Assembly (NCBI GenBank): GCA_013416795.1
Contig: RQSC01000486.1
Coordinates: 1 to 30,643 of the forward strand
DNA length: 30,643 nucleotides
Direction: 5' to 3'
Source of the DNA: Prasinococcaceae sp. CCMP 1430
Lineage: Eukaryota; Prasinodermophyta; Palmophyllophyceae; Prasinococcales; Prasinococcaceae
Shown here: positions 3,439 through 30,615 of the stretch, piece after piece
How positions within the stretch are numbered: the stretch's first letter is position 1
Layout: every line of letters starts with the position of its first letter
The notes under the pieces: model-generated
Told to the model about the DNA's origin: nothing
What the model saw: the letters and a program-made list of their open reading frames with translations, nothing else
The model's database searches: none
Made by a program: the position numbers and the translations under genes

Positions 3439-5224
3439 GCCCGCCACGCACTGCTCCCTGCACGGCGCGGCCGCGCGCGCGATCGACTTCCCGTTCGGCG
3501 GCGGCAAGGACGGCAAGGACGGCGGCGCCAAGAAGACGGCGCGGCGCTCGGGCGACGCGGGCGGCGGCGAGGGCAACCTCTTCGAGCAGATCACCGAGGG
3601 CATGAAGGCGTCGCTCGAGGGCGCCGCCGAGGTGGAGCGCGTGCTCGCGACGCGCCGCGTGAACCGCGAGACCGAGTACCTCATCAAGTGGATGGACGGC
3701 GGGGAGGACACGTGGGAGCCCGCGGCCAACGTCTCCGAGGACGTGCGGCGCGAGTTCGAGGGCAAGTGGTGGGACGCCTGCAGGGAGGGCGACGAGGACG
3801 GTGCGTGTGGGAGCGCGCGCGTGTGCGCGCGCGTGTGTGTGTGTGCGTGTGCGTGCGCGCGCGCGCGAAGAGGGACGTGCGGCGCCGCGCCTTTGGGCGT
3901 TCGGCGCGCTGAGGGCGCGTCCGGGGGTACGAGGGGTAAGGGGGGAATAAAGGGACGAAGAGGAGCCGCGGGGCGCGCTGGCGCGCTCGAGCACCGCTCT
4001 GACGCCGGCTGCGCCCTTCGCGCCACACACACACACGCCCGTGCTCACACACACACACGCGCGCGACGCACACGCACACGCTCGCACACGCAAACGCAAA
4101 ACGCACACGCAAAACGCACAGCCGTCCTGCAGATGCTCGCCGAGGAGCAGCGCAACCCCCGCAAGCGCGACAAGGACGGCCGCACGGGCCTGCACTACGT
4201 GTGCGGCCGCGGCAAGGCCCGCGCGATCAACGGCCTCATCAACTACGGCGCGCGCATCAACGCGCAGGACGCCGACGGCTACACGCCGCTGCACATCGCC
4301 GCGGGCTACCAGTACGTCGAGACGGTGGCGCAGCTGCTCGAGGCGGGCGCCGACCCGGACCTCGAGGACGGCAGCGGGCGCACGCCGCTGCAGCTCATCC
4401 AGGTGCGCGCGCGCGCGACGGCGCGCGTGCGGTAGCGTGTTGGTGCGATGTGTGTGTGTGTGGTTGCTGTTGTGATGGACGGAGGAGGCCTCCTCGTGCG
4501 TGTGTGGCGCGCGCGTGCGTGTCTGCGTGCGGAAGTGCGCGCGTGCCTTCGAGGCGCCTGCCGTGCGCCCGACACGCGCGCGCGCGCGCGCGCCCGGGAG
4601 CGCGCGTGCCGCACGTGTGCGCGCGCATCGGTCCCTCCTCGACCTCGCGGTCGCGCGCGCGCGCTGACGCGCGCGCCCGCGCCCGCGCCCGCGCACCTCT
4701 CGGCCCTCCCGCAGTACCTCAAGGACGCCCAGCCGCAGGACATGACGGGCCTGGCCAACCGCATGTCGCTGGTGGAGATCGAGCGCTCGATGAACCGCTA
4801 CATGTGGGAGGACGTGCCCGTGACGAGCGTGGTGGACGAGCGCATGGACGGCGAGCGCGTGCTGTACCAGGTGGAGTGGGCGGACGGCGGCGAGATGCAG
4901 TGGCTCCCCGCCGACCAGCTGCACCCGGGCTTGATCGAGGACTTCGAGGCGGGCCTCGAGAGCGCCGAGTTCGAGGCCATCGTCGACGCGCGCGAGAACG
5001 TGGACGGCGCCGAGTACCTCGTGAAGTGGGCCGACGGCGAGACCAGCTGGGAGCCCGCGGGCAACCTCGACGAGGAGGACATCGCGGAGTTCCTCGCCAA
5101 GGCCGAGGGCGCGGACGCCGAGGGCGCCGAGGGCGCCGAGGAGGCCGAGGAGGCAGGCGCCGAGGGCGAGGGTGCCAAGGCGGAGGGCGAGGCCGCGAGC
5201 GCGGAGGCCGTGGCGTCCAAGTAA
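3437..5224 (+). CDS. CAO: Chloroplast signal recognition particle 43 (chromodomain/ankyrin protein)
   Basis: cpSRP43 works in the plastid stroma as an ATP-independent chaperone that, with cpSRP54, delivers light-harvesting chlorophyll proteins to the Alb3 translocase. Three exons are supported: 3437-3800, 4122-4402 and 4715-5224. The introns are phase 1 and phase 0, both GT-AG, and the protein is 384 aa. Chromodomain 1 is near residues 65-112 (EYLIKWMDGGEDTWEP). Ankyrin repeats are at about 123-220 and include GRTGLHYVCGRGKA and YTPLHIAAGYQY, keeping the AAGY tyrosine used for cargo. Chromodomain 2 is VLYQVEWADGGEMQWLP. Chromodomain 3 is EYLVKWADGETSWEP. The tail is a run of Ala/Glu/Gly. The N-terminus is the doubtful part: only about 60 residues precede chromodomain 1. 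The open frame continues upstream to an ATG at 3218, which would give a Ser/Ala/Arg-rich, transit-peptide-like leader antisense to the reductase. Both introns contain CTGAC. Confidence 0.9.
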
Positions 5225-5623
5225 GGCAGGGCGGCGGCCCCGCTGCAAACGTTTTTTGCGCGCGCTGAGAGAGACGAGAGCGTCCGCGCGCGGGCGCGCG
5301 GGCGTGCGACGAGTGCGCGCGAGAGAGAGGGAGAGAGCAAGAGCGCGCGAGCGCACGCACGCACGGAGGCGCGCGCGCTCCTGCACGCGCGCATGGCCGG
5401 CCGCGCGACCGTGCACGCGCACGCACCCTGCGCGCCAGTGCGGCCGAGGCGAGCCCCTCTTGCGCGCCGCGCGCTCCCTCCGGCCTCGGCTCTCGCCGAG
5501 CGCGCGCCACAGAGCGCGCGCTGCACGCCGCCTCACCCCTTCCCCCACCCCACCGCACGACGCGGCGAGCGACGCGGCGGGCGCGGGCGCGCCGGCGCGC
5601 CCGTGAGGGAGCACGCCGGGCAC
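5225..5623. other. Spacer after cpSRP43, possible downstream exons of the minus-strand gene
   Basis: GC-rich, with GA/CG repeats at about 5262-5350. On the minus strand it should hold the 3' end of the pseudo-receiver gene, because that frame is still open at 5624. Acceptor-like pyrimidine tracts ending in CAG (minus strand, near 5265 and 5245) are present. No exon can be assigned with confidence. Confidence 0.4.
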
Positions 5624-6139
5624 CGCCTGCGTGCGGCGCTTCACCATGGCGCGCACCGCGTGGTGCCACAGCTTGGCCACCTGGAACGTCTGCAGCGGGC
5701 GCGTGAGCACCTGCGCGGCGCCGAGCTTGATGCCCTTCACCACGAAGGTGTCGTCGTCGGGCTCGCCGATGAGCACCACGGGGATCTGTTTCGCGCGCGC
5801 CGCGTCCATCACCTTCTGCCCCTGCGACGTGTCGGCGCCCTTGCCCGAGATGAGCGCCACGTCGAAGTCGTCCACCGACGACGCGCGCAGCACGCGCAGC
5901 GCGTCGGCGCGCGACGTCGCCGTGCGCACGTCGTAGTGGCACTCGTCCAGCAGCGCCTTGTTGCGGTCCAGCAGCTCGCGGTCCTCCTCCATCAGCAGCA
6001 CCTGAGGGGTCGTCGGGTGGGGTGTTGGTGGGTGGGTGGGTGGGGCATTGGCGATCGGTTCGGTCCGGCGCTCTCGGGGGTCAGCTGCAAGCTGGGGCGA
6101 CGCGGCGGCCGACGGCGGCGACGGCTCGGGCGCGACCAT
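5624..6139 (-). CDS. Pseudo-response regulator (receiver domain lacking phosphorylation residues), 3' end unresolved
   Basis: From the ATG at 6139 the frame gives a 46-residue Pro-rich leader and then a receiver fold of about 120 residues. Strand 1 and the acidic pair are VLLMEED (47-53). Strand 3 is DFDVALIS (91-98). Strand 4 is PVVLIGE. Strand 5 is QVLTRPLQ, and the last helix is LWHHAVRAMVKRR. The closest style is the plant pseudo-receivers (APRR2, PRR/TOC1, type-B ARR), where the last helix reads LWQHV. Key residues are missing: the phospho-Asp position is Ser98, the Ser/Thr switch is Gly125, and the invariant Lys is Arg147. It therefore cannot run a normal phosphorelay. Such proteins usually carry a DNA-binding GARP or CCT domain downstream. 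None is visible, and the exon probably ends at a GT donor at about 5623. A CAG acceptor at 6004-6002 offers an alternative upstream exon. Confidence 0.65.
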
Positions 6140-6743
6140 CCACGCGCGCACGACGTTCTACCGCGCGGCGTCGGCGCTGAGCGTGTCGCTCATCCCGCCG
6201 ACGCTCGACACGCGCGTGAGCGTGGAGACGGGCGCGCCGTACCGCGTGGTGACGCGGCTGGGCACGGTGCTGCTGGAGATGGCGCCCGCCGAGGGCGACG
6301 CGCAGGGCGGGGACTTCGGGCGGCTGGCGAGCGTGGGCGGCGGGGCGCCCGACGGCGCGCGGCGGTACGACTGGCAGAACCGCCGCGTCACCTTCGCGCT
6401 GTCGGCGCTCGAGGTGGGCACGCTCCTCGCACGCTCCGAGCCCGCCGTCGCCGCGGCGTACGAGGCGGGCGCCGAGCTGGGCAGGTTCTACCACCAGACG
6501 GGCGGGCCCGAGCGCCGCGGCGAGCTCCCCTCCAAGTCGCTGGACGTCACCGCGCTCGCGGGCGGCGGCGCGAGGCTGTCGCTGTACGTGCGCGACCCCG
6601 ACGGCGAGCGGGGCACCTCGGTTTCCATCTCGCTCGCCGACGGCGACCTCGCCGTGCTCAGGGAGCTCTGCCGCTGGGCGCTGCCGCGCCTCACGGGCGC
6701 GGCGCAGGCCTTCGAGTCCAGGGCGGGCAGGGACGTGCCCTAG
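6085..6743 (+). CDS. WHY: Whirly-family ssDNA-binding protein, 5' end unresolved
   Basis: About 215 residues of a Whirly domain. These plant proteins bind single-stranded DNA as tetramers and guard plastid or mitochondrial genomes against illegitimate recombination. One also acts as a nuclear transcription factor. Matching segments in order are: FYRAASALSV at the KGKAAL position (the binding loop, here degenerate), LGTVLLEMAP, the highly typical RRYDWQNRRVTFALSALEVG, GRFYHQTGG, LDVTALAGGGARLSLYV, and LADGDLAVLRELCRWALPRLTGAAQAF. The stop is TAG at 6741-6743. No in-frame ATG precedes the domain, so a first exon with the targeting peptide must lie upstream, interleaved with the opposite-strand pseudo-receiver gene. 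A CAG at 6082-6084 is a workable acceptor. The canonical KGKAALS motif is only loosely kept, so DNA binding could be altered. Confidence 0.78.
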
Positions 6744-6979
6744 CCAGGAAGGCGGGGCGTACGGGCGTGCGGCTCGCACGCACGCAAGGGCGCGCGCGCA
6801 CACACGCGCACGCACACAGTCACAGACGGTCGTACTGCTCGCGACGGTGCGACGCTGCGACCTGCGCCCGTGGGGAGCGAAGCACACACAAAAATGAATA
6901 CCGAACAGCACCGACCTGGCGGCCCTCTCCGCCCGCGCCGCTCATGGCGCCCGCCCGCTGCTCGCACCCGCCCGCCGCC

Positions 6980-8988
6980 CTACCTGGCCGCGCGCTTGCG
7001 CTTGGACGGGTCGAGCAGGCGCTTGCGCAGCCGCACCGCGCCGGCCGCGCACTCGATGAGCTCGTCCGCCGCGACGTACCCCATGGCGTCCTCGAGCGTC
7101 AGCCGGCGCGGGGGCTGGAGGCGCACCTTTTCGTCCTTGCTCTGCGTCCGCATGTTGTCGAGCTTCTTGGCGCGGACGGGGTTGACGTCGAGGTCGCCCT
7201 CGCGCGCGTTCTCGCCGATGATCATCCCGGCGTAGCAGGCGTCCCCGGGCTCGATGAAGAGCGTGCCGCGCTGCTCGAGCGCCCCGAGCGCGTGCAGCGT
7301 GGCCGCGCCGTCCGCCATGGACACCATCACGCCGCTCCGCAGCCCGCCCAGCGCGCCGCGCTTGCGCTCGTAGCCCAGCACTCGGCGCGTGGCCACGCCC
7401 GTGCCGCGCGTGATGCCCACGAACTGCGCGCGGAAGCCCACCAGGCCCCGCGTGGGCGCGCGGAAGGACAGCCGCGTGCGGCCGCCAGGGAGGCCGCTGG
7501 ACATGTCCTGCAACTCGCCGAGGCGCTGGGTGAGCGCCTCGATGATCGCCCCGGCGTGCTCGTCCGCGACGTCGGCCATCACCTCCTCCACGGGCTCCGC
7601 GAGCTCGCCGTCCTCGCCCTCGCGGTAGAGCACGGCGGGCGGCGACACGCTCAGCTCGTAGCCCTCGCGCGTGAGCGTCTCCAGCAGCACGCCCAGGTGG
7701 AGCTCGCCGCGCCCCTGCACCTCGAAGGCCTCGCCCGCGCCCTCGGCGGGGCGCACGCGCAGGCTGACGTTGGTCTCGGCCTCGGCCGCCAGGCGCTCGC
7801 CCAACTTGGCCGCGGTGAGCACGGCGCCGCCCTTGCGCGGGCTGCCGTCGGCCTCCTTGCCCGCCAGCGGCGAGTCGTTCACGGAGAACGTCATGGCGAG
7901 CGTCGGCGCGTCGATGGGCGTCGCCGGCAGTGCCTCGCCGACCTCCGGGGCACACACCGTGTCGGTGACCGACGCGCCGCCCACGCCCGCCAGGCTGACG
8001 ATGTCGCCGGCCACCGCGCGCTCGATCTCCACCGACTCGGTGCCGCGCCGCTTGAGCACCTTGGCGACGCGCGCCAGGCCGTCCGCCGAGGCGCCCACGC
8101 CCGCGGGCTTGGGCTCGCCGCCCGCGCCCAGCGCCTTGAGCCTGTCGCCCACGCCCGCACTGCCCGCCATCACGCGGCCCGTCACGATCCTGCCGAGGTA
8201 GGGGTCCCGGCTCACCATCGACACCAGCATGGCGAAGGGCGCCTCCGGCGCGACCGCGGGCGCCGGCATGGCCTCCAGCAGCGCGTCGAGCAGCGGCGCC
8301 ATCGCCGCCGACTCCTCGCCGGGCGGCGTGCCGCCGCCGCGCAGCGCGCGTGCGGCGCGCGGGAGGCCGGCGAGCGAGCGCGTGCGCGCGCGCACGGCGC
8401 GAGAACGCTGCCATCGCCACGCACCTGGCGTACACGGTGGTGAACTCGAGCTGCTCGTCGGAGGCACCCATGGCGGCGAGCAGGTCGAAGACGTCCGACT
8501 CGGCGGCGGCGCAGCGCTCCTCGGTGGCGCCGTCGCGGTCGACCTTGTTGAGGCACAGCAGGATCGGCAAGCCCTTGGCCACGGCCTTCTGCACGACGAA
8601 CTTGGTCTGCGCCATCGGCCCCTCGGAGGCGTCCACCACCAGCACGGCGGCGTCCACCATGTCGAGGACGCGCTCCACCTCGCCTCCGAAGTCGGCGTGG
8701 CCGGGCGTGTCCACAGCGCTCACCGCGACGCCGCGCCACGACAGGCTCGTCACCTTGGACGCGATCGTGATGCCGCGCTCGCGCTCCAGCGACAGCGCGT
8801 CCATCACGCGCTCGGCTCCCCCGCTGCCGCCCAGCGCATCGGCGGCGCCCAGCAGCGCGTCCATCAGCGTCGTCTTGCCGTGGTCGACGTGCGCGATCAC
8901 CGCCGCGGAGCGCGGCGGCGCGGCGCGCGACGACGACGACGCGAAGGCGGCCAGAGCGTGCGGCAACGCCGCGCCCAGCGGCGCCGAC
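6980..8988 (-). CDS. typA: TypA/BipA translational GTPase, plastid or mitochondrial type
   Basis: TypA is a ribosome-associated GTPase of the EF-G family, needed for ribosome function under stress. The plant copy is in the chloroplast. Exon 8988-8425 carries the G domain: G1 AHVDHGKT, G2 RERGITIASK, G3 DTPGHADF, G4 NKVDRDGA. A second exon, from about 8340 to the TAG at 6982-6980, carries domain 2 (FAMLVSMVSRDPYLGRIVTGRV), then GRGELHLGVLLETLTREGYELSVSPP, PVEEVMADV, GLVGFRAQFVGITRGTG, and a basic C-terminus ending KRKRAAR. The intron after VYA starts with a good donor (8424), but no AG downstream gives the right phase before the domain 2 frame. The family's SAKEGW segment is missing, so this junction is unresolved or holds a sequencing error. 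The frame has no ATG before the G domain. A CAG acceptor at 8991-8989 joins it to the upstream OXNAD1-like exon. Confidence 0.88.
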
Positions 8989-9041
8989 CTGCGCGCAGCA
9001 CCAGGCGGCGTAGTGTGGTCGAGAGCGTCGCCGCGGCTCAC

Positions 9042-9488
9042 CACCACCGCTCGGTGAGCACGGCAGTTGGCGTTGGGCGCAGCTCGGCAAGCGCGCGCGC
9101 CCAGGCGTCTGTGGCAGCCGGCGGTCCGCACGCTACGGTCGTGGGACCCTCCCCCTCGGTCGTGTTCCCGCGCCTTTGCAGCCGCGCCGCGAGCTCATCG
9201 AACGCCTCTTGGAGTGCCTGCGGCGTCACCCTGCCGCTGCGGACCTCCCATCGCCTCGAGAGAGAGGGCTCGCCACCGTCACCGCCTCGGTCGCCAGTGA
9301 CGTGCGCGACGAGTCGCAGGCGTCCGCCGGCGGCCTCGGCGGCCTCGGCGGCATTTTCCAGTCTGTCGACGAGCGCGAAGTCCGCCGCGCGGCGGCATGA
9401 ATACAGAAGCGTGAGTGCGGGCGCCGGGGCGCGCGGAAGAGCTTGGTCGCCGCCTGCGGCAGTCGTAGTAGCGCACTCGGCTGCGTTG
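9042..9488 (-). CDS. OXNAD1: OXNAD1-like oxidoreductase NAD-binding domain, C-terminal exon (5' truncated at N)
   Basis: Minus-strand coding that matches the C-terminal half of an NAD(P)/FAD oxidoreductase of the ferredoxin-reductase superfamily. TLLYSCRRAADFALVDRLE is the strand and helix after the pyrophosphate site. WEVRSGRVTPQALQEAF follows, then VACGPPAATDAWARAL (the CGPP nicotinamide-binding motif), and TAVLTERWW at the end. OXNAD1 proteins end in just such an E-x-WW, and here TGA follows at 9040-9038. The segment upstream of TLLYSC is low in information and stops at the N at 9489, so the FAD domain is not in the window. The same GGTGAGC that makes the stop is also a strong donor (intron 9041-8989, 53 nt) that continues in frame into TypA. 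Whether this protein ends at WW or is fused is open. Confidence 0.65.
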
Positions 9489-16725: not shown

Positions 16726-19506
16726 ATGCCTCCGAAGTACTACCGCCCAGGCACCGACTCGGCGCCCCCGGCCTACTACGACGCTGGGAGGGAAGAGGAG
16801 GAGGCCGAGGAGCAGGCCCGCAAGGAAGAAAGCGGCAACCCGTTCGAAGAGGCAAGCTCCAGGGGGTGCGTGAGCGACGGCGCCGGGCGTGCGGCGTAAA
16901 AGTCATGCCGCGCACTGCCATTTTTGACGCGCTCGCGCGCTGACGCGGCAGGCGCACCCACCCATGACTGGCGCGACAAATCGACACGCTGCGCGCACGC
17001 CGTACTCGCGGCACGCGCACCGCGCGCTGCGAACCACCACACGCGTGCTTTGTGGACGGCAGGTATGCAAGCGGCTCGTCGTCTGCCCACGGCGGGGGCG
17101 GGGCGTACTACAGCGCCCGAGGCGCCACGTCCGTACGTGGCGTGACGTCGCGGATGGCCTCCGCGGGGCTTGCGGGGGACCGCGAAGAGGTGGCGGGCGC
17201 CGCGAGTGAAAGGTTCGCCGGGGTGACAGACGACGCTGCCGGGAGCCCGCCGCTCTTCGAGAGCGCGTCGGTGGGCGTCAGCGGCGGCCACGGCGGCGTG
17301 GGGGCGGCCGCGCAGCGCATGCGCGCGGCGTCAGCCGCGACGTCTGCGGCGGGGATGTCCTCCGCCCCCGCCGGCGACTACGCGCGCAACACTTCGCCAA
17401 GCGCCGCCGCCGCGTACGCGAGCTACGCCTCGGGTGCCTCGGGCAGTGGCAGCGGCGGCGGCGGCGGCGGCGGCCCCCCGGTGACGGCGGCCGAGCTGCC
17501 TCGCCCGGAGTCGTTCGAGGAGTGCTTCGCGCTGGCTGACGCCAACGGCGACGGCCGCGTGGACGGCGGCGAGGCGCGCGCCTTCTTCGCGCAGAGCCGC
17601 CTGCCGCAGGCGGCGCTCGCGCGCGTATGGGTAGCCGCGGACCAGTACAAGCAGGGATCGCTCGACCCCGCAGGCTTCGGACTCATGCTGTGGCTGGTGG
17701 GACTCGCGCAGGCGGGCGAGCCGCCCACGATGGATGCACTGGGCGAGGCATTGGCAAGTGGGCGCGGTCTGCCGTTACCCGACCTACCCGAGCTCGACTC
17801 CTGGCGCGAGCGCGGCAAGGCGCGCGTGGCGAAGGCGCGCAGCGCCGCAGCGGACAGGGAGAGTTCCGAGGGCGCCTTTAAGCCCAGCGGCAAGAAGAGC
17901 GGCTGGTTCGGCATGGGGCGCAAGCGCAGTGTGCCCAAGGCGAAGATCTCGGCCAAGAATGTCAACTCGATGGTCGAGGCGCTCAAGGTGCTCTACCGCA
18001 CGAAGGTGCGCCCCCTGCTCCTCCTCTGGCCGAAGCGCGTGAAAATGAGCGGGCGGGAGTTCCTGCGGCTGAAGCTGCGGTTCGGGTGGCAGGACGACGA
18101 TCCCCAGTACTCGGTGGGCAAGACCTCGTTCATAAGGTACATACTTGGACGCGACTACCCGACTGCGCAGATCGGACCAGAGCCCACCACCGACAGATTC
18201 GTGGCGGTGATGCACTCATACGATGAGGGCGTCACACCCGGCAACACGCTCGCAGTGCAGACAGACAAGCCCTTCACGGCCCTGCAAAAGTTTGGCACAG
18301 CGTTCCTGAACAAGTTCGTCGCCTCCAACTGCCCCGCGGAGCTGCTGGAGCACGTGACCCTCATCGACACGCCCGGCGTGCTCAGCGGCGAGAAGCAGCG
18401 CATCGAGCGCAGCTACGATTTCTCCGCAGCGGTTGAGTGGTTCGCAGAACGCTCCGATCTCATATTGTTGCTGTTCGACCCGCACAAGCTAGACATCTCT
18501 GATGAGTTCAAGCGGGCGATAGGCGCGGTGCGCATGGCGAGCGACGACAAGGTGCGCGTGGTGCTCAACAAGGCCGACCAGGTGAGCACGCAGCAGCTCA
18601 TGAGAGTGTATGGGGCCCTCATGTGGTCCCTCTCTCGCGTGGTCCGCACGCCCGAAGTGCTCCGCGTATACATCGGCAACTTCAGGGACGCAGAGTACAT
18701 GGTGAAGGACAACGCCGACTTACTCGATCGCGAGGTGCGTACGACGCCACGTTAGCTCTACCAGTGGCCGAGAGGCGAATGGCTCTATTTGCACGTGCGC
18801 CCCCGCCGCTGCGCGCAGCAACTTGTTGAACTTGAATATTGAACGCGCGCGCAAAAGGGCGGAAAGGCGCCGCGGGTCGTCTGTCACTCGACAGGCCTTT
18901 GCCGCTCGGCGGCTCTGCGGGGTGCCAGCCTCCGCCAGCCTCCGCCAGCCCGCTTTCGTGCGTGATTGCATGTGTGATGATTTGCATGCGTAAATATCTA
19001 ACGCGCCGATCAAACGACGAAACTACGCACGGACGGGTGGCGCGGGCGTGCCCTCCGATCCAACTGATCCCATCGACCATCGGCGGCGCGCACTGGCACC
19101 GTCACAGCGCGATGACCTCCTGAACGATCTGTACGACCTTCCGCGTCGCAACGTCGCGCGCAAGATCAACGAATTCGTGAAACGCACTCGAGCGACGAAA
19201 ATCCACGCATACATCATGGCGTACCTGCGGGCGAAGGTGCCAACGTTCGGCAAGGAAAAGTGGCACGCCCGCCAGCTGGAGAAAATGGAGGAGACGTTCC
19301 AAAAGGTGGCCGCGCAGCACGCGCTCGCCCCAGGGGACTTCCCACCGGTGGAGTATTTTCGCGAGAAGATGCAAGGCTTCAAGGTCCACAAGATCCCCAG
19401 CATCAGCAAGAGAGCCATAGAAAGACTCGACGAGGTCCTCTCGGAGGACCTGCCGCGCATGATGCAGCAGTACGGCAATCCGTTTGCCGAGGCGGCCTCG
19501 TACTGA
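16726..19506 (+). CDS. EHD1: EHD-family dynamin-like ATPase (EH domain at N-terminus, plant type)
   Basis: EHD proteins are membrane-remodelling ATPases of endocytic recycling that act at endosomes and the plasma membrane. Three exons: 16726-16865, 17063-18734 and 19108-19506 (phases 2 and 0), giving 736 aa. Residues 1-47 are acidic and hold an NPF motif (38-40). A Gly/Ser/Ala-rich linker follows. The EH domain is at about 190-285 with a calcium-loop sequence, DANGDGRVDGGEA. The G domain has the P-loop YSVGKTS (about 397), DTPGVLSGEKQR (about 482) and NKAD (about 549). The last exon reads RDDLLNDLYDLPRRNVARKI, then FVKRTRATKIHAYIMAYLR, and ends NPFAEAASY. This order, with the EH domain first, is that of plants and algae; animals have it last. 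The segment just before the P-loop (about 362-395) has the usual length but none of the usual DFDAKPMVLLLG sequence. Confidence 0.92.
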
Positions 19507-19623: not shown

Positions 19624-22600
19624 TTACATCCAGCGCTCTTTGTCTGCTGCGGTCTGGTACGAGTCATCCGAGCCAGCGGGGGTTTGGAAGGGCGCCGTGG
19701 CATCCTCGTCGCCCTGGCTGAGCCTCTCGGTCACCTCGGAGGAAGCCTCGTCGACGTCGGTGGCGCCCGTCTGCTGGGGCGCGCCAACCTCCTCGGGCGA
19801 CTCCTCAATCTCGCTTTCCTCCTCCGTCTCATCGCTAGCCTTAGAGGATGATGACCAAGCCGAGGCTGGTCGCTCTGGCTGGGACGCTGCTGCGCCACCA
19901 GACGCCTCAATGGCGCTGCCGCCTGCCTGCGCGCGAACGATCATGCTCCTCACCATTCTGCGCGCCTTCCAGCCGCGCGCAAACGCTTGGATGGTAAGCG
20001 CCGCCGCCATGCGCACTGACTCGATCTGGTGCACGTTCTGCAAGACGGCGTGCTGTGCCTCGACGATGTTCTGCAGCGCCTCGATCTGCGCTTCGACGAC
20101 CATCTCTTTCGAGGCGAGCCATTTCATCTCCTGGCGCTTTTCCTCCTCGTATTCGGGCACCTCCACGCCCACCCTGTCGAGCACCTTTTCAGCGATCAAC
20201 TCGGCGAGCTCGCGCGGGGACATCGAGCCCAGCGGGGACTCGCGGGCGCCATGATCAAGCGCGCTATGGAGCGGATGGCTCGTGAACCCGCCACCCTCGT
20301 CCTCGCTCGAGTCGCCCGAACCGGACACGATCGCTCGCAGCTGCTGCGCCTGCAGCGTGCAGAGGCACGCGACAATCTCGCGGCGCGATACCCACGAGGA
20401 ACCGTCACTCATGGGCATGCGCAAGTGCGCGTCGACGAAGGCGCGGCGCTCCGCCAGCTCCTCCTCGTCGTCCGAGTCGAGGCCCATTTGGTCCACCAGC
20501 CCGCTGAGCTCAGCCTGGACGCAGCCCATCACGGCGCCCACGGCGCGGTCGGCGACGCCGAGGCAGCCCCCGCGGTCGGCCTTGATCTCACCGCGAGCGA
20601 TAGCGTCTGCCTTGGCCTGAGCGCGCTTGGAAGCCGTGCGCGAATTCTTCATCTTGTCCAGTCGCGCCTTGCGCTGCGCCAGGCGCTTGTGCAGCATCCC
20701 AAGATACACGAATGGGGGCACCTCGACGCCCGTGTCCTCTACCGCCATCTCGGCGTCCATCGTGGCGGCCTCATCCGAGGAGCTTTCGAGCAGCTTGCGC
20801 TTTGTCCTCTTCTTCGTATACCATTCACCAAGCAGGCCCATCGCCTCGCCGCCTACGCTCACCTTGTCGTCGGGGCGCGTGCTCGCATCGAACTCGGAGC
20901 GCACCTCGACGAACGCGTCTCCAAGCTCGGCGAGCAGGAAGTTGGCAACGATGAAAAGCTCCAGCACGGCGTAGACGACGACCATGATGAACCCCACCCA
21001 GTACTCGGTTGAAGTGACGGCGCCGTTGTTGGAAAGCCTCGTGAGCTCGTAAGCGACACTGATCTCTCCAAGAATGATGGTGAAGAAGTACATCACGCTG
21101 TCCTGGAAGGTGCGGAAGTAGATGATCTTGTCACCGAATACGATGACGGCGGTGGCGGCAAACATGGACATGACAAGCATCAATATTCCGACAACGTACG
21201 CCACGTCCGACGCGCTGCGAATGAGCGTGAGCGTCGTGCGCTTGAACTGCGGCTGGAAGTGCACGAGCATGAGCAGGCGGACCATCAATATTAGCAGCAC
21301 GATTCCACACAACGTGAAGTACAACGTGAGCAGATTTGACATGGTGTCCAGCGTGCTGACCATCTTCTCGAACAGTATGAGGTCCTCGGCGTCGAGCGGC
21401 TTGTCCCACCTCGACTCGCCCCTCGGCGTGCCCTCGCGGTTGTGCAGCAGGTAGCGAGCGGCGGCAGCCAGGTCGTCGTACACGCTGTACCTGGGCTCAA
21501 CTTCGAGGGGCAGGAGGTACGAGAACACGTACGACCACCACACGAGCAGCGACATTACCAGCAGGATGACGATCACGTCGTCCACGAGCGCCCTGCCGTT
21601 CAATAGGCGCCTCATGATGCCACCAGTGAGGGAACCTGCTTCCCTGATGTCCGCGAGGAGGGCGATCACTCGGCTCGCAGCTGCATACGCAATTATGAGG
21701 GCGACGATGCCCTCGAGGGCCGCGCGCACCCAGTTCTGCGTGGTGCTGTAAAGGTTGACCGGCAGCGCCTGCACGTTCTCATTCACAAGAATGTACCCAC
21801 CGGGCACGAAGTCGAAGTCCACGCTGTAGGTGATGAACGTTGAGGCCTCGGCGTTGTAGAAGTAGAACGCCGTGGTCAGCGCGCGCGTGCTCGAGTCGAT
21901 GAATCCGCCCTCGTCGAGGTAGAGCACCATCTCGAAGAAGCGCGTGCGAGTGAACGACGTATCGAACAGTACCCAGAAGCCGTCGCGGTAGCCCTTGAGC
22001 GGATGCGTCGCGAAGCCGAAGGGCGTCTGCGCCTTGCCGAAAGTCTCGCTACTGTTTGCGCTGAGGTCATAGAAGAGCTCCTTGAAAGACTGCAGCGAGG
22101 GCTCGTACAGCTGCGTGCCCTTGAGGAAGACGGGGTCCACACCGAACGTCTCACCTGAGAGAACAGAGCCATCGCGGCAGGTCACGCCCAGGTGGTCGAA
22201 GCGGCGGCTCCCACAAACCTCGACGCCAGATGCGGCGCGCGTCTGGTGCACCACCATGCCAGCGAGGAGGCGATTCGTTCGCCCGGCACTGCGTTTGAAG
22301 ATGGGCTCCTCGGGACCGACGCCCAGGTTGATGTAGCCGGATTCTTCGAGCTCGCGCAGCTCCGCGATGGTGATATTGAAGCGCTTGCCGTCGGCGGTAT
22401 TGACGCGCGCGAGCCCTCCGTCCTCCACGGTGCGGCCCGCGCCACCCGCGCCACCCGCACGCAGCAGTCTGCGGCGGCTCTCAGTCGCATTGCTCGCGGC
22501 AACGCCGCTGCTGGCATCGCTGACCGCGCCAGAAAGTGCCTCAACGAGGTCGTCCGCGTCGCTGGCGCCTTCCGCCGCGGCGTCAGTGGCCCCGCCGACG

Positions 22601-25600
22601 AGCTGCAGGTAGCGCTCGAGCAGGCTATCGGCGCCACTGTCGGTCGATGGGTCATACACGTAGTCCACAGTGACCACGTCGTAGTCGTACAGCTCGTACG
22701 AGCTCACGTTGAAGTCGATCGACAGGTCGGAAGCATCGTGCCGCGAACAGAAGAGCTCTTCCGCATCTTCGCCGACGAAGGATGCGGCGAGGGCCGCCGT
22801 GCGGACGGAGCGAAGCTCGTCCTGGAGGCGCACGCTCTCCTGCACGATCGCCGTGATGGCGCTTGCGTCGCTGGGGCCTGCAGCCAGCGTGACCAGGACC
22901 GCCTGCAGCTCGTCGAGCATATCGATGAGCTCATCGGCAGTCTTGATGTGCTCCGACGTAGTGTCAGTGGTACGCTTGAGGCTGTCAACGTACGAGTCCG
23001 ACACTGCGCGCTGGAACTTGGGCGCGTTGAGCGATGCCGATCGGTACTCGAGCGTCGCCTTGCTCGCGCTGCGGGCGGTCTTCGTGTTGTCGAGCTGGGT
23101 CTGATACGAATTGTAGGCCACCATGAGCCCCTGCGACCACTTCACCAAGTCAAAGTCCACTTCCTGCACTTCGGTCTCAACCTCCACGTTTGGCGACACC
23201 TCAGGGATCTCCACGTCGAGGCCCTTCTCGCGCGCGAAGGCCGCCATGTTCTCCGTAAGGTTGCCCGAGCCGACAGAGGCCGCAATCGACGAGCCGAGGC
23301 CCGCCGCTTCGTCATCAAGCTCACCCCCCGTGTCGGCGCTACGGAGGGTGAGCTCGAAGTCGAAGTCGATGCTGAAGCCCGACTCGAGCAGCGCGCGCCC
23401 GCCGGCGCCGGTGGCACGTGCGTGACGCAGCGAGCGACCGCGGCTGCGGCGCCGGCGCGCAGACTGTCCCGCGGTCACTCCGGTCACGGCACATTCGGTG
23501 CCCGGCGGCGCCGTCTGAAGCATCGCATCGCATAAGAGCGTCAGGTAGTCGTCGTCCTGCGCAAGCCTCACCGCCTCGGCCTCGGCCTCCTCGACCATGG
23601 TCGCTGTCGACGCTGTCTCGATGGCGCCGCCAACGACCGCCTTCTTTACGATGGTGACCGTGCGAACCTCGCTGGTGGTAGTCAGACCCGCAGAGTCGGT
23701 GACGCGGTACGAGTATAGGTACGTGCCTGGCGGGCACGTCCCGGCGGTCGCCGTCTCGATAGGACATGCCTCCAGGCCTTCGTCATTCTTGGTGCCAGTC
23801 ACCTCGACGAGCGCGCTCAGGTCGCCATCCACAGCGTCGACGGCCGAAACGCCACAGAAGATCACGGTCGCGTCTTCCGCGGGCGCCTCCCCATCCGAAC
23901 AGAGGTCAAGGTACAGGCCCTCCTCGTCGGCATAGTTGCGCTGGTAGTCAAAGGTGTAGTTCATTGAGCCGTACAGGGTGATATTGGGAGGCACAGTGTC
24001 GCCGGCCTCGACGTCGTCATCGCCGCCGAGGGCGGCCGCCTGCTCGCGCACGGCGTCGCGCTCTGCGCACGTTGAGAAACCTGTCGAGCACTCGCCATCA
24101 TCGCAGTACTCCTCGTTGAGCTCGGTGCAGGGGTTCGAGATGGTGATCGTGCGAGTCACCGTCGCCTGCTGCGGCGGCTGCGCCAGGTCGTACACGACGA
24201 AAGTCACAGCGAACTCCGTACCGAAAGGCGCGTCGGGATTGACGCAGCCGGTGACGCCCTTGTTGATATCGCCAGTCTTGGTGTAGTACTCGTGGCCGGA
24301 GCAACCGATGCCCTCATTAATGCACGAGTCCGGTGGGCACGACAATATGGTATTGGTCAGGTCGCCGTTCTCCTCGTCGCTTGCGTCGACGCCCAGCTCG
24401 CACAGCACCTCCTCTGATGGGACCGCGCCGTCGCACACACTGTAGCCCGCCTCGAGCTGTTTGACGCTCTTGTACAGTTTAGCGTACTCGCCAAGGACAC
24501 CGTCGCTGCTGGTGCGAAGAGTGATGGTCGGAGGCTGGTCGACGACCACCTCCTCTTCTTCCTGCGGCGCGGACGCGGTGAGTTCGCTCTCGCAGATGAG
24601 CTCGAAGTCGGAGCAGGTGATGCCGTCGGCGCACTGACGCGTGCCCTCGGGGCATCCGCCCTTGGGTACCACTTTGACGTTGCGGTAGGTGCTCACGCAC
24701 ATCCCTGCCGAGTTGCACGCCTCGAAATCGATCACGTAAGGCTCCGTGCGAGGCTCTGGCGAGCGCGAGACTTCACAGTTGGTGACGCCGTTGCGCACGA
24801 AGTTGGACCCGCACGCGCGCAACACGCTGGCGAGGCTCCCTTCCTGCGGGTCGGTCACGTTGATTCCCGGCTCGCAGATCTGCGTCTTGGGCGTGTCGGG
24901 CGTGCACATCACGTACGGGCTGCCCTCTTCAATCTCCACCGGCGGGAGGCCGTCGGGGGGAGGCTCGGGGGTGATGTAAGGCGGCAGAATCTCGACCTCC
25001 TCCTCCTCGTCGAAAGAAATCGCTTGTACGCCACACACGCCACCCGCGCCGGGGCACATGTTGTCGTCGAAGTCGTCGCCCTTGCAGCGCTCGACCTGGT
25101 TGCCGTTTTCGTCACGGCACACGACGTAGATACGACGGCGGGCGACCATGGCCGCGTTTCCGGCGCTGTCGCTCACAGAGTAGGTGACCACATACGGCAG
25201 GTCGATAGTCAGCTGGCTCACGTCGACCTCAAGAATGCCGACGCTCGAGACGAGCGCCGTGACGTCGCCGTCTTCGGCATCGTAGGCCGTGGCACCAGCG
25301 TCGACGTACGGCACGCCCTGGGTCCAGTTGGTACTCATGACGAGCAGTCCCGCAACGTTGCGTTCCGCCCCCGTGGAGTACTCGTCCTGGGTGAGCGACA
25401 GCACGGGTGGGTCCGTGTCTTGGATCGCCACGAAGACCTCAGCAGGCGCACTCTCGGCCTGCACCTCGACGAAAGCCGCGCCGCACACGCCGAAGCGCGA
25501 GCACTGCGGGTCTTCGGGGGTGCTCGAGTCGGCGCACACATATTCGCCATCCTCGCACGGGCTGGTGACTGTGATCACTCGCGTCTCCTCGGTGGAACAC

Positions 25601-28600
25601 ACGCCCGAGTTGTCGGGCGTACCGTCGCAGCTCTCGTCAGTGGCGATGTACGTAATGACGTACTCGCCAACGCGCGTGACGTCCACGTCGCCGAAGCCGA
25701 GCACGCGCACGCTCACGACCCCGTCGATGGCATCCAGCGCGGTCGCTCCAGCATCGGTGTAGCCGGCGGTGGTGTTGCCAACGATAAAAATCTCGCGGTC
25801 GCCGAGCACTGTGATCACGGGTGGGTCGTAGTCGCACTTGAGCTCGTCCGAGTTGTCCGGGCAGTCGTAATCGACGCGGTCACAAACGGCGGAGTTCGAC
25901 ACGCAGCCGCTGAGGTCCGCGCAGCGGAACTGGCCGTCGTCGCACTGGAGCTCCAGCTCCGAGTCATCTTCCTCGTAGTCGTAGTTGATATCGAGCGAGG
26001 CCGCGGTGGGAAGGGGCGCAGGGGGCGGAGGCACTGGCGGCATCGGCGGCTCGGGCACCACGACGACGAAGTCTAGCGAGGTGCACCCGGCAGCCTCGTC
26101 CTCCGCGGTCGGGCAGTTGATGTTGCCATCACAGATGTCGAACAGGTCGATGCACGTGCCGTCGTCGCACGCGGTCTTGCCTAACCCGCACCCCGTTCCG
26201 ACGTAGCTGTGGTCGATCTCGACGAAGGAGTCCACCTCAAAGGTGATTGTGCTCACGCTCGAGTAAACCACCGACTGAGCGCTCGGTATGAGGGCATTCG
26301 TCAGCACGCTGCTGCTCGCAAAGACGACTTGTGGCTCACGCAGCAGCGTCTCGACCGCCAAGCTGCTGTCGCCCCCAGGGAAATAGTACGTCAGTGTCAC
26401 GCGCGTGCCGGTGAGCAATTCCGACTCCGACGGCGAGATTTCCACCTCGAAGTGCTCCTGCTTGTGGCCGAGAGCATCGGTGGCAGCAACGAGCACCTCC
26501 TCGACGAATGGCGCCGCGAACATCTCCATGTAGCCGGCGCTGCCTTCGTCAAATAGCGAGTACGCAAGCGCCGCAAAAGTTGCCTCCAAAGTCACAGCGG
26601 TGCCAAGCACGGCGGCCGGCGGGGGCAGCGGGGGCGGCGAGGGCGGCGGGCTCGGCGGCGGGCTCGGAGGCGGTGAAGGAGGAGGGCTTGGAGGAGGGCT
26701 TGGAGGAGGGCTCGGGGGCGTGTGTGTGCACGTGTGAGTGTGCGCGCTCGCTCACCAGCAGCAAGGCGGTGGGCTCGGCGGCGGTGGGCTCGGCGGCGGT
26801 GGGCTCGGCGGCGGTGGGCTCGGCGGCGGTGGGCTCGGCGGCGGTGGGCTCGGCGGCGGTGGGCTTGGCGGCAGGCTCGGCGGAGGCGGGCTCGGTGGAG
26901 GTGGGCTTGAGTCGGCCTGGACTGCGACGACCACACTGAAGGACGTCACGTTGACGTATGCGTACGCGTATGAGGCATTCACATACGAGATAGTGTGCGG
27001 CTCGAGTACTTCGGCCCATTCGGTGGAATTGATGCTGTCGGCCTTCAGAATGTACACGCCACCCTCGCCATATGGCTCGTACGGAACCTGCAGCGTCACA
27101 GGCTGGTCGAACGCCATACCGTGCGGCGTGAGCGATACATAGTCTGAACGGGCGCCCTTGCCGAACGCGCCAGACGACAACTTCTGCGAAAGCGTCGGCA
27201 CGTCGTTCGAGCTGAGCGCTACCATGCCGAGTGACATGCTGCCAGAGAACGCCCCGGCAGGCACGCGCATCTGGTGGCCTGTGCCCGCGATCTCCATCGT
27301 GCCTCCCCGGTCGCCCTCGAACTCTTGCGCTCCGGAGCGGTGGGCGCGCACGGCATCGCACGCATCCCCGCCGCCTTGAGACCCGCAATACTCCCTCATC
27401 ACGAGCAGGCACCTAGGCGTGGCGGTGGTGGGATCGAAGGCGTAGGACGCCCCTCTCCCGGGGGCGGCGCACTCCTGGCGGGTGCAGGGACACTCGTACG
27501 CGATGCCTCGGATGCCGCTGTCGCACTCGAAGGGGCATTCGAGCGAGTACCCATCGGCGAACTTCGGCGGCCCGCCCACGAAGTGTCCGTTGAAGCTGTA
27601 AATGTGGTCGACCAAGAGGACATCCGTCATGTCGTTGAAGTCAGTGAAATCGGTCTGTGACAAGCCTGCCTCAAGCAGAAGCTCCAACGGTGTCAATTCC
27701 CTGGCGGACGAGCTGAGGTGCCTCTTTCGCCGTCTGTCGTCGTCGTCGCCACCGGTGTCAGGGAAGTCAAAGCGGGTGCGCGCGGATTCGTCCGCCTCTT
27801 CGTAGTCCAACTCAACGAGGTAGGTTGTCGTGCCATCGCCGGCCCGGCCCTTCAAGATCTCCCCAGCCGCGCGCAGGGCCTTGTGAAACTTGATCGCCGC
27901 GGCGCGGTCGAATAGACCGACGCGGAAGATCGCCACGCGCGTCTGGTTGTCGGTGCCCGTTGCTGTGGTCTCCCCAAGGCTGTGCCAGACCTCCGCGTCG
28001 CGGAAGAATGTCTGGCGCGTCGGGCAGCACGGATCGCACTTGAACGACGCCACTGCGAGCGAACCCTGCCTCTCGCCGCACGTGCTGTACGCGGCGCCCA
28101 CTTTCTTGTTGGGGTCCGACTGGACGGGGACGCACGACGCGACAGCTTCCTTGCACGACTCGTCAACCTCTGAGTAGCAAGGGTACTCGTCGTAGCAAGA
28201 GTTGGTCGTGTCAACGACCTCGCCGAGGGCGCACGTCTCGCCTGAGGTAAATTCTTGCTCCGCGGCTCCCTCAAACGAGTAGTAGGGCTGGGATTCGCAC
28301 TCGAGCGCGTCCGTGGCGTTGGCCGGGCGCTCGGGCGTCACGCACAGGCGCTCGTCACGCTCATAGTACTCCTGCGGCTGTAAGGTCAGCGAGATCGTGT
28401 AGTCCTCGTACCGGTGGTTGTGCCCCGAATAGTCGTAGTCTCGGTTGTTGATCGCGTAGTCGTACTCGTGGTTGTGGTAGTCACTGTACTCTTGGTTGTG
28501 GTAGTAGTCACTGTGCTCTTGGTTGTAGTAGTCACTGTGCTCTTGGGCGTTCATCGCGTCGTCGTAGTAGTACTGTCGGTTGTAGTGCTGACTATATTCT

Positions 28601-30615
28601 TGGTTGTGGTACTCACTGTACTCTTGGTTGTCGTAGTACTCACTGTACTCTTGGTTGTCGTAGTAGTCACTGTAGTCTTGGTTGTTGATGCGCGCGGCGG
28701 CCGAGGCAACAAGGTCCAACGCGTCGTACACCGCCTCGAAGAGGTCACCGTCGGGGGCGTCGTGCGTGGGAAAGACGATGCGCACGGCGCCATCCACGAC
28801 GTACTCCGGTGTGTCCAGGGAGACTGTGTCGCCGCCCACCACCGTGTCGGGAAGAACGGCTGCCTTGATCTGCTCCGTACTCATCGCCCCGAGCTTGTGA
28901 CCGGTGAGCGCCACCTCGCTTATCCCGCGCAGCGTGCGCAGGCCTTCGGGCGAGAAGGCTGCGAGCTGCTCGGGGCTCATCAGCTCGAGCGCGCTCACGC
29001 TCAGGCCGCCTACGGCCGAGGGCGAAAGGTTGGCGAGCTCGCTCGCCGAGTACGCCGCGGAGAACACGCCCGCGTACTCGGCGTCTTCGGTGGACCAGTC
29101 ACCGGTTGCACCCATCACCTCCCGCACGAGGTCGGGGAAGCCGCTGTCCTCATCGCGAAGGGCTTCCAGCCGGCCCGTGAAGCTCAGCTGCCTGTCGAGC
29201 AGCGGCAAGGTCCCCGCAAACTCCTCCGCGAGGTCCGCCAGGGGGTAGTCATAGTCGCGGCCGCCCTCGAGCAAGAAGTGCGCGCACGTGGTATTGTGCA
29301 ACATGTGATACTTGAGCATGTACTCAGAATACTCGAAGAAGTCGCAAACCGCGTCGGGGTGCGAGCAGTCCACCTCCGGCTCCCAATCGTCCTGTGAGGA
29401 AAGCAAGGCGCGCCGGGTGCGCATGCGCCCGGAGGAGTCTGCCGGGGCGCCGGAGGCGGGGCGGTCTTCGACCGCCGCCGCCGCGCCGCCGCGCGCCTCC
29501 GCGAGCGCGCGCCCGTCACGCAGCACGCGATCGATGCGCGAGTTGAACGCCCGCAGCCTGCGCGAGGCCTCGCCACCCGCAAGCAACCCCGTCTTGCGGT
29601 CGACCACCACCGCGAGCGGCGTCTTGGGCAGCGGGCACGACGCCAAGGAGCTCACGACCTGCGGATCGGTACTGTTGGAGATGTCGATGACCTTGGCCGA
29701 CACACGCCCGAACGTGTCCCCGCGCACACGCAGGTAGTACTGGCCGTCGGGCAAATTGACCGGCAGCGTGGCTGTCGAGCGGTCGGGCCTGTTGAATGTG
29801 CGGTCCTGCTCGTACCAGCAGACCTCTTCGGATTGCTTGAGGCACAGGTTCCACGTCGCCTCGGTCATCAGCTCGGCGGCCGAGCGCGGCGGCGCCTCGA
29901 AGCCCGGCGGAGCAAAGAAGCTCGCCGAGACGCGCAGCAGCATCGTGGTCGTGCGCTCCTCGAGGCCGCAGTCGAGGAAGCAGCCGAAACGGCCGTAGCC
30001 CGGCACCTCGAAGGGCGACTCGCAGACTCCGTCGCCGCACACCGGGTCGGTCCACAGCGGCCACACGTTGCCCTCCATCCACGCATACACGCTATCCTTG
30101 CCCTTCATCACCGTGCCCGACTCGCCCGGCGAGAGGACGCTGCGCACGGGGTCCACCACCGTGCTCATCTCGTAGCTGTTGCGCTGCTGCAGCAGCATCG
30201 CGACGAAGAGCCCCACGGCGACGAAGAATACCAGCAGGCCCCGGTGGCCGTCCACTCGCGCCCCCCGCCGCTCGACCACCCCACCCACCACGTCAAGCGA
30301 GCGCTGCACGCCCTGCGGGAGCCGGAAGCGCGCGCTCATGCTGCCCGCGTCCCACTTGCCCGACTGGAGCGCGCGCAGCAGGCGCGGGTCGCGATCGGGG
30401 TTCGCGAACGTGACGGCGGGTGCCCGCTGCTGCACCATCTCCTCGGAGATCTCCGACTCCGTGGCGTCCTCCTCCTCGGCTTCCGCGCCGCCCGACACGG
30501 GAGCGTCCGCCGCGGCGCCGCCCGCAAGCGCCGCCTGGCGCCGCTCCTCGCTCGGCGGGGGCGGGAGCGGCCACAGTGCCCGCCCCGCGCTCGTGCTGGC
30601 GGCGCCGCCGCTCAT
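19624..30615 (-). CDS. PKD2: Giant polycystin-2-like cation channel with modular ectodomain
   Basis: Two exons, 30615-26756 and 26710-19624, joined by a 45-nt intron, give about 3,648 aa. An acidic cytosolic start (1-125) is followed by one membrane segment (GLLVFFVAVGLFVAM, about 127-141), then a Cys-rich stretch (VYAWMEGNVWPLWTDPVCGD, FGRFGC-type). Next come a Tyr/Asn-rich repeat (about 643-735), a ZU5-like unit (GGTMEIAGTGHQMRVPAGAF and LTPHGMAFDQPVTL, about 1101-1186), SPPPP tracts (about 1242-1318), two LDL-receptor class A modules (about 1460 and 1545), and five HYR/DUF5011-like Ig folds with small Cys modules between them (about 1580-2310). The polycystin (TOP) domain resumes at about 2780. 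S2-S6 lie at about 2946-3222, with the pore at TIILGEISVAYEL. The tail holds coiled coil and an IQ motif (ALTIQAFARGWKARR, about 3523), a likely calmodulin site. Related channels work in cilia and mechanosensing. Ligand and location here are unknown. The ATG is at 30615-30613. Confidence 0.88.
26641..26905 (-). repeat. SPPPP and SPPP codon repeats flanking a 45-nt intron
   Basis: A 15-nt unit coding SPPPP is repeated at about 26764-26905. After the intron a 12-nt unit coding SPPP is repeated at about 26641-26712. Such tracts in green algae are usually hydroxyproline-rich, rod-like wall segments (as in pherophorins). Here they form a stiff spacer inside the channel ectodomain. Confidence 0.9.
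28415..28690 (-). repeat. Tyr/Asn/Asp/Glu/His-rich tandem repeat in the channel ectodomain
   Basis: About 90 residues made of variants of DNQEYSEYY and NQEYSDYHN, coded by imperfect 24-30-nt units of TAC/TAT, AAC, GAG and CAG codons. The stretch is strikingly poorer in GC than the rest of the gene. It has no resemblance to a folded module and looks like a disordered, polyampholyte or prion-like spacer. Confidence 0.9.

Follow-up and report, generated by a model that had tools for sequence, protein, structure and literature searches.

A polycystin gene of Prasinococcaceae sp. CCMP 1430 that may hold an MST3-type arm and a SIP-like half in one chain

A gene of the alga Prasinococcaceae sp. CCMP 1430 bears on the question, still open for the polycystins, of how a channel acquires a huge lever outside the membrane. 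The stretch analyzed here (the window) is an entire contig of 30,643 bases, RQSC01000486.1 (C95), from a searched genome of 24.5 Mb in 145 contigs; nearest proteins and GC content suggest a prasinophyte-grade green alga. On its minus strand the initial annotation had placed a polycystin with about 2,800 residues inserted between the first two membrane helices, S1 and S2, so that the TOP domain is divided. The obvious counterpart is MST3, the axis of the mastigonemes, which are hairs on the cilia of Chlamydomonas; its 42 poly-proline repeats run the length of the filament, and it occurs in a complex with MST1, SIP and PKD2 (Dai 2024, PMC11015965). In MST3 S1 is missing, as are two TOP helices and an Ig-like domain; a separate protein, SIP, encodes exactly that region (Dai 2024). 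SIP (Small Interactor of PKD2, A8JFQ9) has 361 amino acids and is similar to the N-terminal region of PKD2 (Das 2024, PMC10846610). The window gene is probably a single gene for a six-helix polycystin with an MST3-type arm in its S1-S2 loop, and the module array of the arm may be older than the splitting-off of S1.

Layout and reading frame

Membership of the polycystin (TRPP) family is indicated by a Pfam match to PKD_channel (2.4e-11) together with six hydrophobic spans in a 19-residue hydropathy scan, at residues 135-153 (S1), 2979, 3023, 3109, 3150 and 3219. Residues are numbered on P0003, the read-through of both open reading frames (ORFs) with the intervening TGA written as X; a count from the first Met is lower by 9, and beyond the putative intron by another 15. 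Residues 135-153 (30184..30240, minus strand, as for all features of this gene) are the only span ahead of S2 with a Kyte-Doolittle (KD) value of at least 1.6 (KD 2.21), and the same scan detects no further membrane helix in residues 155-2978, where the best KD is 1.56. The initial annotation, which expected one hydrophobic span before S2 and a return of the TOP domain near residue 2780, and had named beforehand a second helix just before that return as fatal to it, is borne out: S2 lies at 2979, the return starts near 2782 in the MST3 alignment, and about 2,800 residues separate S1 and the initial TOP segment from the remaining TOP domain and S2.

As a mark of distinction, the word "inserted" fares less well. 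In the PKD2 of the same genome (C89:359115-364043, named by its S1 module and channel) the same scan finds S1 at 179 and S2 at 1202, with a loop of ~1,004 residues, and the loop of Chlamydomonas PKD2 is also described as large (Das 2024, PMC10846610), so an enlarged loop is not peculiar to the window gene. That of ~2,800 residues is nevertheless the longest measured here among S1-module proteins, beside that of Bathycoccus P0008 (~2,770 residues). Array, TOP return and channel all resemble those of MST3-type proteins, whose missing S1 half is in Chlamydomonas the separate protein SIP, so the key contrast is between an unsplit and a split gene rather than one of mere insertion length.

The chain is encoded by two ORFs, 30642-26752 and 26751-19624, which share one frame and are separated by a single TGA. 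Intron lengths of 30-250 nucleotides were tried; GTGAGC at base 26755 is the sole GT donor, within 120 nucleotides upstream of the TGA, for a frame-keeping GT-AG removal of the stop, and six acceptors are compatible with it. The shortest choice gives a putative phase-2 intron of 45 nucleotides (26711..26755), containing the sole in-frame TGA and CA-rich in contrast to the Ser-Pro rods that flank it, and its excision would leave 3,657 stop-free codons, counted from the contig edge. Both ORFs probably belong to one gene, continuous in frame apart from this short intron. The start Met (residue 10) lies at base 30615, with the contig edge 28 bases upstream of it, and the charged N-terminus (30241..30615) is taken as cytosolic: residues 1-134 contain 0 sequons, 19 Asp/Glu and 17 Lys/Arg, and no signal peptide is seen by eye. 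The acidic C-terminus (19627..20877), likewise taken as cytosolic, contains a sub-threshold IQ motif (20004-19954; Pfam 0.0047).

A comparison with other green algal polycystins, proposed in the initial annotation, finds the whole layout in one predicted protein of Bathycoccus prasinos (P0008, 3,656 residues), which aligns end to end: S1 lies at 258-276 and the Cys knot at 326, followed by Pro rods, the five modules, the TOP domain and S2-S6. S1 module, array and channel are also combined in two metagenomic relatives (3,053 and 3,024 amino acids). Since all three carry the layout in one chain, they oppose a division of the window locus into two genes, which the initial annotation had named, if seen in transcripts split near 26750, as its other refutation.

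The arm, the S1 half and their counterparts

The loop begins with the first part of the TOP domain (29608..30183) and passes into a low-complexity, Cys-containing linker (27316..29607), which includes Asn/Tyr/Asp-rich repeats (28686-28399); the equivalent place in Bathycoccus holds different repeats, of Tyr and Pro. Residues 529-595 of P0001 (28858-29058, minus strand) match a designed protein in the PDB, HeliScrew4, and enclose a sub-threshold ALTTAQ repeat. The ZU5-like unit, the SPPPP rods and the LDLa modules of the initial annotation are all recovered. ZU5 (27079..27315) exceeds its Pfam cut-off (3.3e-6; 9.2e-8 as a separate piece). Ser-Pro rod 1, made of SPPPP repeats, ends exon 1 (26756..26910), and rod 2 follows the putative intron (26611..26710). 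Pfam counts two LDLa stretches over the cut-off (3e-5) and places the best one at module 2 (25834..25944); module 1 (26083..26190) was picked by eye. Autoproteolysis of the ZU5 domain was considered and dropped: a His is expected at the site, as in PIDD, and the domain end reads TSFS, with no His.

The five Ig-like modules of DUF5011/HYR type, D1-D5 (23623..25845), were only partly recovered by Pfam and fully by BLAST. PF16403 passes its cut-off in the whole protein and, on single modules, in D1 and D2; D5 falls below it (0.0021), and D3 and D4 give no match. Both PF16403 matches listed for the genome (4 candidates scored) lie in the window gene. BLAST of the modules, which covered four proteins (P0008-P0011), gives in-order best matches for 5/5 in Cymbomonas P0009. 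Order is kept for 4/5 in Bathycoccus P0008, where the best match of D3 is short and falls in the next module, the in-order match being second. In Astrephomene P0010 and P0011 the order holds for D2-D5, whereas D1 hits the same module as D2 (tied with another in P0011). Because the modules match those of homologues in order, the array is best read as an inherited block rather than a chance set of Ig-like folds.

Behind the array a stalk (22318..23622), whose final part is modeled as partly helical at low confidence, leads to the second TOP part (residues 2776-2975; 21718..22317) and to S2-S6 (20932..21708), delimited by Pfam, hydropathy and alignments. The best PDB sequence match of the second ORF is chain X of 9b4h (8e-35), a "C-type lectin domain-containing protein" of 8,572 residues. 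By its length we take it to be MST3 (Chlamydomonas Cre06.g309951, 8,572 amino acids), the axis protein that a second mastigoneme study reportedly names Mstax. Three regions align with it: D4-D5 with 4947-5222 (independent E-value, i-E, 8e-20), residues 2782-2966 of the second TOP part with 6314-6510 (i-E 5e-12; in another search the second TOP part with 6314-6509, 9e-12), and the S3-S4 linker to S5 with 6670-6799 (i-E 6e-9). Two Ig-like modules and then the TOP domain precede a polycystin channel in both proteins. The second TOP part matches the TOP domain of human PKD2 weakly (i-E 0.044), and Pfam Polycystin_dom (PF20519) stays sub-threshold (E 0.013; 15.4 bits vs. a cut-off of 23.6).

The S1 half was modeled as a separate piece (residues 102-345, 20 homologues in the input). 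The model comprises a long helix that includes S1 (block predicted local distance difference test, pLDDT, 82-90), two helices (55-69 and 81-96 of the piece) and a β-sandwich (strands 130-219), with a mean pLDDT of 69; the first TOP part also contains a Cys knot, CGDGVCESPFE-GYGRFGC-DCG (30039-29965). This fits the published description of SIP, and we tentatively regard the S1 module as a SIP-like half. Against the PKD2 of its own genome the module scores 4e-26 in BLAST, and the CGDG-C / GRFGC-DCG knot is common to both.

The S1 module recurs in algal proteins. Two protein searches returned 4 and 23 matches, most without an organism name; the named carriers include two Cymbomonas proteins and one of the cryptophyte Hanusia phi, and none of the matches is named SIP or Chlamydomonas. 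The smaller of these searches was confined to the 7,996 candidates with the most words in common, and the first homologue search, in the same way, to 2,136. The Hanusia protein (P0036) places the module beyond the green algae, the only group from which SIP homologues are reported (Das 2024, PMC10846610). In a metagenomic protein of 394 amino acids (P0030) the module leads into a Cys-rich stretch and then a poly-proline rod; another lineage may have a loop of this kind.

In the genome itself the module was found twice, in the window gene and in PKD2, joined to a channel each time. Two queries at E ≤10 and one at 0.1 found no free SIP, with 2, 2 and 5 candidates scored, which does not prove its absence. 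The module was not detected in 6/6 array proteins, P0009-P0014 (best E 0.14). The N-terminus of P0009 itself is missing, so that this protein does not count as evidence of absence, and the starts of the other five are gene models; P0010 and P0014 begin, by eye, with signal-peptide-like stretches.

Conduction and the role of the arm

Taken together, the subunit would be a six-helix polycystin whose S1-S2 loop bears an MST3-type extracellular arm. The chain would leave the membrane after S1, extend along an arm of rods and beads and return to complete the TOP domain atop the channel. In this way S1, two TOP helices and an Ig-like domain, as a SIP-like half, would stand in cis with an MST3-like half (rods, LDLa, five modules, TOP sheet, S2-S6), and the subunit could form cation channels alone or with the PKD2 of the genome. 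At the aligned selectivity filter (ILGEIS, 21075-21058) the window protein reads ILGE, P0005 VLGE, the PKD2 of the same genome LLGE and human PKD2 ILGD; LG[D/E] is not present at that place in Bathycoccus P0008 or in the six array proteins P0009-P0014, MST3 lying outside this alignment. By sequence, the window protein has the parts of a conducting subunit, and the array proteins that lack S1 look like accessory subunits.

It is also possible, if rather unlikely, that the arm-bearing chain is a non-conducting accessory subunit of the PKD1 kind, joining PKD2 in a ratio of 1:3. A ratio of 3:1 for PKD2 to MST3:SIP has been proposed in Chlamydomonas (Dai 2024, PMC11015965). The genome does contain a PKD2, and the LG[D/E] filter is missing from Bathycoccus and the six S1-less array proteins, but the window protein and P0005 have kept LGE, and all six spans are present in the window protein. 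This alternative concerns function only and is compatible with an unsplit history.

In the conducting subunit that we prefer, the arm would tie the channel to material beyond the membrane of the cilium or the cell, and tension on the arm, its position or simply its anchorage may act on the TOP domain. For this surface tether the nearest functional precedent appears to be the tether of ciliary filaments, in which mechanosensing is likewise unproven; the wall- or matrix-linked mechanosensor of the initial annotation is weakened to that extent. A ciliary location is possible, given the cilium genes of the genome: an IFT57 match of 1.1e-116 exceeds the cut-off (three control archaea remain below it), and there are five DHC_N1 matches, a domain not confined to axonemal dyneins. 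Because Bathycoccus has no flagella, a role at the cell surface, for example with scales, is also conceivable.

Chlamydomonas PKD2 is cleaved within its S1-S2 loop, and the fragments stay together (Das 2024, PMC10846610). A candidate processing site in the window protein is RRRLLR (residues 2723-2728; 22476-22459), which aligns with ARRLLR of Bathycoccus. The motif RR[LIV]L occurs once in the window loop (shuffle p 0.08) and in 6/10 proteins, and the site is offered as a lead only.

Descent and comparison with known systems

For Chlamydomonas it has been proposed that a PKD2-like gene was fragmented first and gained its ectodomain afterwards (Dai 2024, PMC11015965). The window gene would encode an unsplit MST3-related polycystin, and its array may predate the split, which would reverse that order. 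We hold, tentatively, that the gene preserves the undivided ancestor of MST3:SIP: the array would have grown between S1 and S2 of a conducting polycystin, and only later would a cut within the same loop have released S1 as SIP in the lineage of Chlamydomonas. The undivided form would then have been an arm-tethered cation channel, and loop cleavage like that of Chlamydomonas PKD2 could prefigure the genetic split. The open-access literature, searched by titles and abstract starts and with subscription papers mostly outside its scope, yielded no unsplit polycystin with S1 and array in prasinophytes.

The layout makes it likely that the unsplit forms share one ancestor; the trees do not show it. 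Channel trees of 15 and 11 rows were built, the smaller without three distant paralogues and human PKD2, and an array tree of 9 rows. P0006, P0007, P0004 and C64 and C69 of the same genome were left out of all three, and MST3 of the array tree. Long rows are P0009, P0014 and human PKD2 (15-row), P0009, P0014 and P0008 (11-row), and P0014, P0008 and P0012 (array). In the 15-row tree P0010-P0014 and MST3 form a six-row clade (99/98) and the window protein and P0005 another (100/100), with Bathycoccus, the PKD2 of the same genome, human PKD2 and Cymbomonas unplaced. The deep order of the array tree, like that of the channel trees, lacks resolution.

The genome has 12 PKD_channel matches, including the window gene and PKD2. 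Five further ones lie on C64, C92, C134, C126 and C69, of which C134, C126 and C92 group together, well apart from the other rows, in the 15-row tree; 4/5 have an S1-like span, which C134 and C126 carry within the ORF itself and C92 and C69 in the neighboring upstream ORF. The polycystin ORFs C64:42276-44717 and C92:22026-24824 have identical membrane spans and may be a recent copy or haplotypes. The other five matches (C73 three times, C85, C117), in four ORFs with 11-17 hydrophobic spans, were rejected as polycystins and taken as multi-domain voltage-type channels.

Several points weigh against the account given here. The single-gene model is a prediction from genomic sequence. The model of the channel is poor (pLDDT 52); PKD2 is its best Foldseek match (E 1.3e-11), but with a template modeling score of 0.21 by query. 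The likeness to SIP is drawn from a moderate model and published text rather than from a direct alignment, and a fold search of the S1 module found no matching PDB chain (best E 0.07). Bathycoccus keeps the layout yet has neither the acidic filter nor flagella, so that conduction and a ciliary role may not be general features. In the 11-row tree the fused genes (P0005, whose record starts after the S1 half, is counted among them by kinship alone) do not form one clade in the best tree, although their monophyly is not rejected (approximately unbiased test, p 0.133), and the window protein and P0005 adjoin the PKD2 of the same genome (86/83). Micromonas is a close relative of Bathycoccus. SIP genes are reported from various green algae including Micromonas sp. 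(Das 2024, PMC10846610); they may be free genes or modules like that of the window gene, and a free SIP may coexist with the unsplit form.

The same SIP genes, which slightly lower the odds of an array-first order and raise those of re-fusion, together with the unresolved deep branches of the channel and array trees and the failure of the fused genes to appear as one clade, would suit a history of re-fusion, in which SIP and an S1-less array channel were already separate in the common ancestor and prasinophyte lineages joined them again. This history, which leaves function untouched, seems unlikely to us: S1 module, array and TOP return stand in their native order, the module is joined to the channel in cis at both genome sites and no free copy was found, and the same fusion would be required in two lineages, or a shared one.

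Two separate genes, a SIP-like membrane protein with a rod ending at the TGA (26752) and an S1-less channel, would agree with the in-frame stop, with the separate counterparts in Chlamydomonas (Dai 2024, PMC11015965) and with the predicted proteins P0004 and P0005, which begin within the second part. The division is nonetheless very improbable, given the donor-like GTGAGC at the stop, the frame-keeping intron of 45 nucleotides and the Bathycoccus counterpart, which is one predicted protein. Moreover, the first Met of the second ORF (MEMFAAPF) is followed, by eye, by no signal-peptide-like stretch, so that the array could not reach the outside if that ORF stood alone. The distance to S2, and the failure of Pfam to recognize the module, might suggest that residues 135-153 are only a signal anchor and that a true S1 is absent, but the 32-35% identity over ~150-230 residues to the same place in the PKD2 of this genome, where the module is in cis, makes this extremely doubtful. 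A chimeric assembly, suspected from the contig ending 28 bases upstream of the start Met, is scarcely credible in view of metagenomic near-copies of the first half (P0016, 97% over 75% of a 361-residue query, diverging afterwards) and of the second (P0004, 99%) and the same layout in Bathycoccus.

Tail to tail with the polycystin gene lies an EHD-type gene (16968-19506, plus strand; EH, Dynamin_N and DUF5600 in two ORFs). Separate ORFs at 2416-9194 (minus strand) encode FAD/NAD reductase domains and an EF-Tu-type GTPase domain, along with a response-regulator receiver whose match stays below threshold.

If the single gene is as we describe it, here and in Bathycoccus, an arm can be carried without splitting the membrane fold. 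The order of split and array becomes testable, structure and electrophysiology gain a single-chain subject, and the gene may show how the split channel of Chlamydomonas arose. Among known systems, Bathycoccus P0008 shares the S1 module, Tyr-rich repeats, Pro rods, five modules, TOP domain and S2-S6, with ~26% identity from TOP to S6, but has lost the acidic filter, and Pfam finds neither ZU5 nor LDLa in it. The PKD2 of the same genome has the same knot, an enlarged loop and an LGE filter, but no DUF5011 array by Pfam within its first 1,495 residues (P0015). Mammalian PKD1 likewise mounts a big ectodomain on a polycystin channel; it has 11 helices, GPS/GAIN and PLAT, whereas Pfam up to E 1 finds neither GAIN/GPS nor PLAT in the window protein, which has six spans. 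SIP, by its published description and the model, resembles the window module in its single S1-like helix and part of the TOP domain, but is a free single-pass protein of ~361 residues, whereas the module would be continuous with the channel frame given the putative intron. MST3 shares with the window protein the Ig-like modules, the second TOP part and poly-proline rods outside the membrane. It lacks S1 and the first TOP part, which the window protein has in cis, and is described as having 42 poly-proline repeats, a putative lectin domain and probably a signal peptide (Dai 2024, PMC11015965). The window protein has two short rods, with 63 Pro in residues 1246-1345 when the 15 intron-coded residues are counted, and no Pfam lectin match. 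What the window gene would add is an MST3-related polycystin undivided from its SIP-like half.

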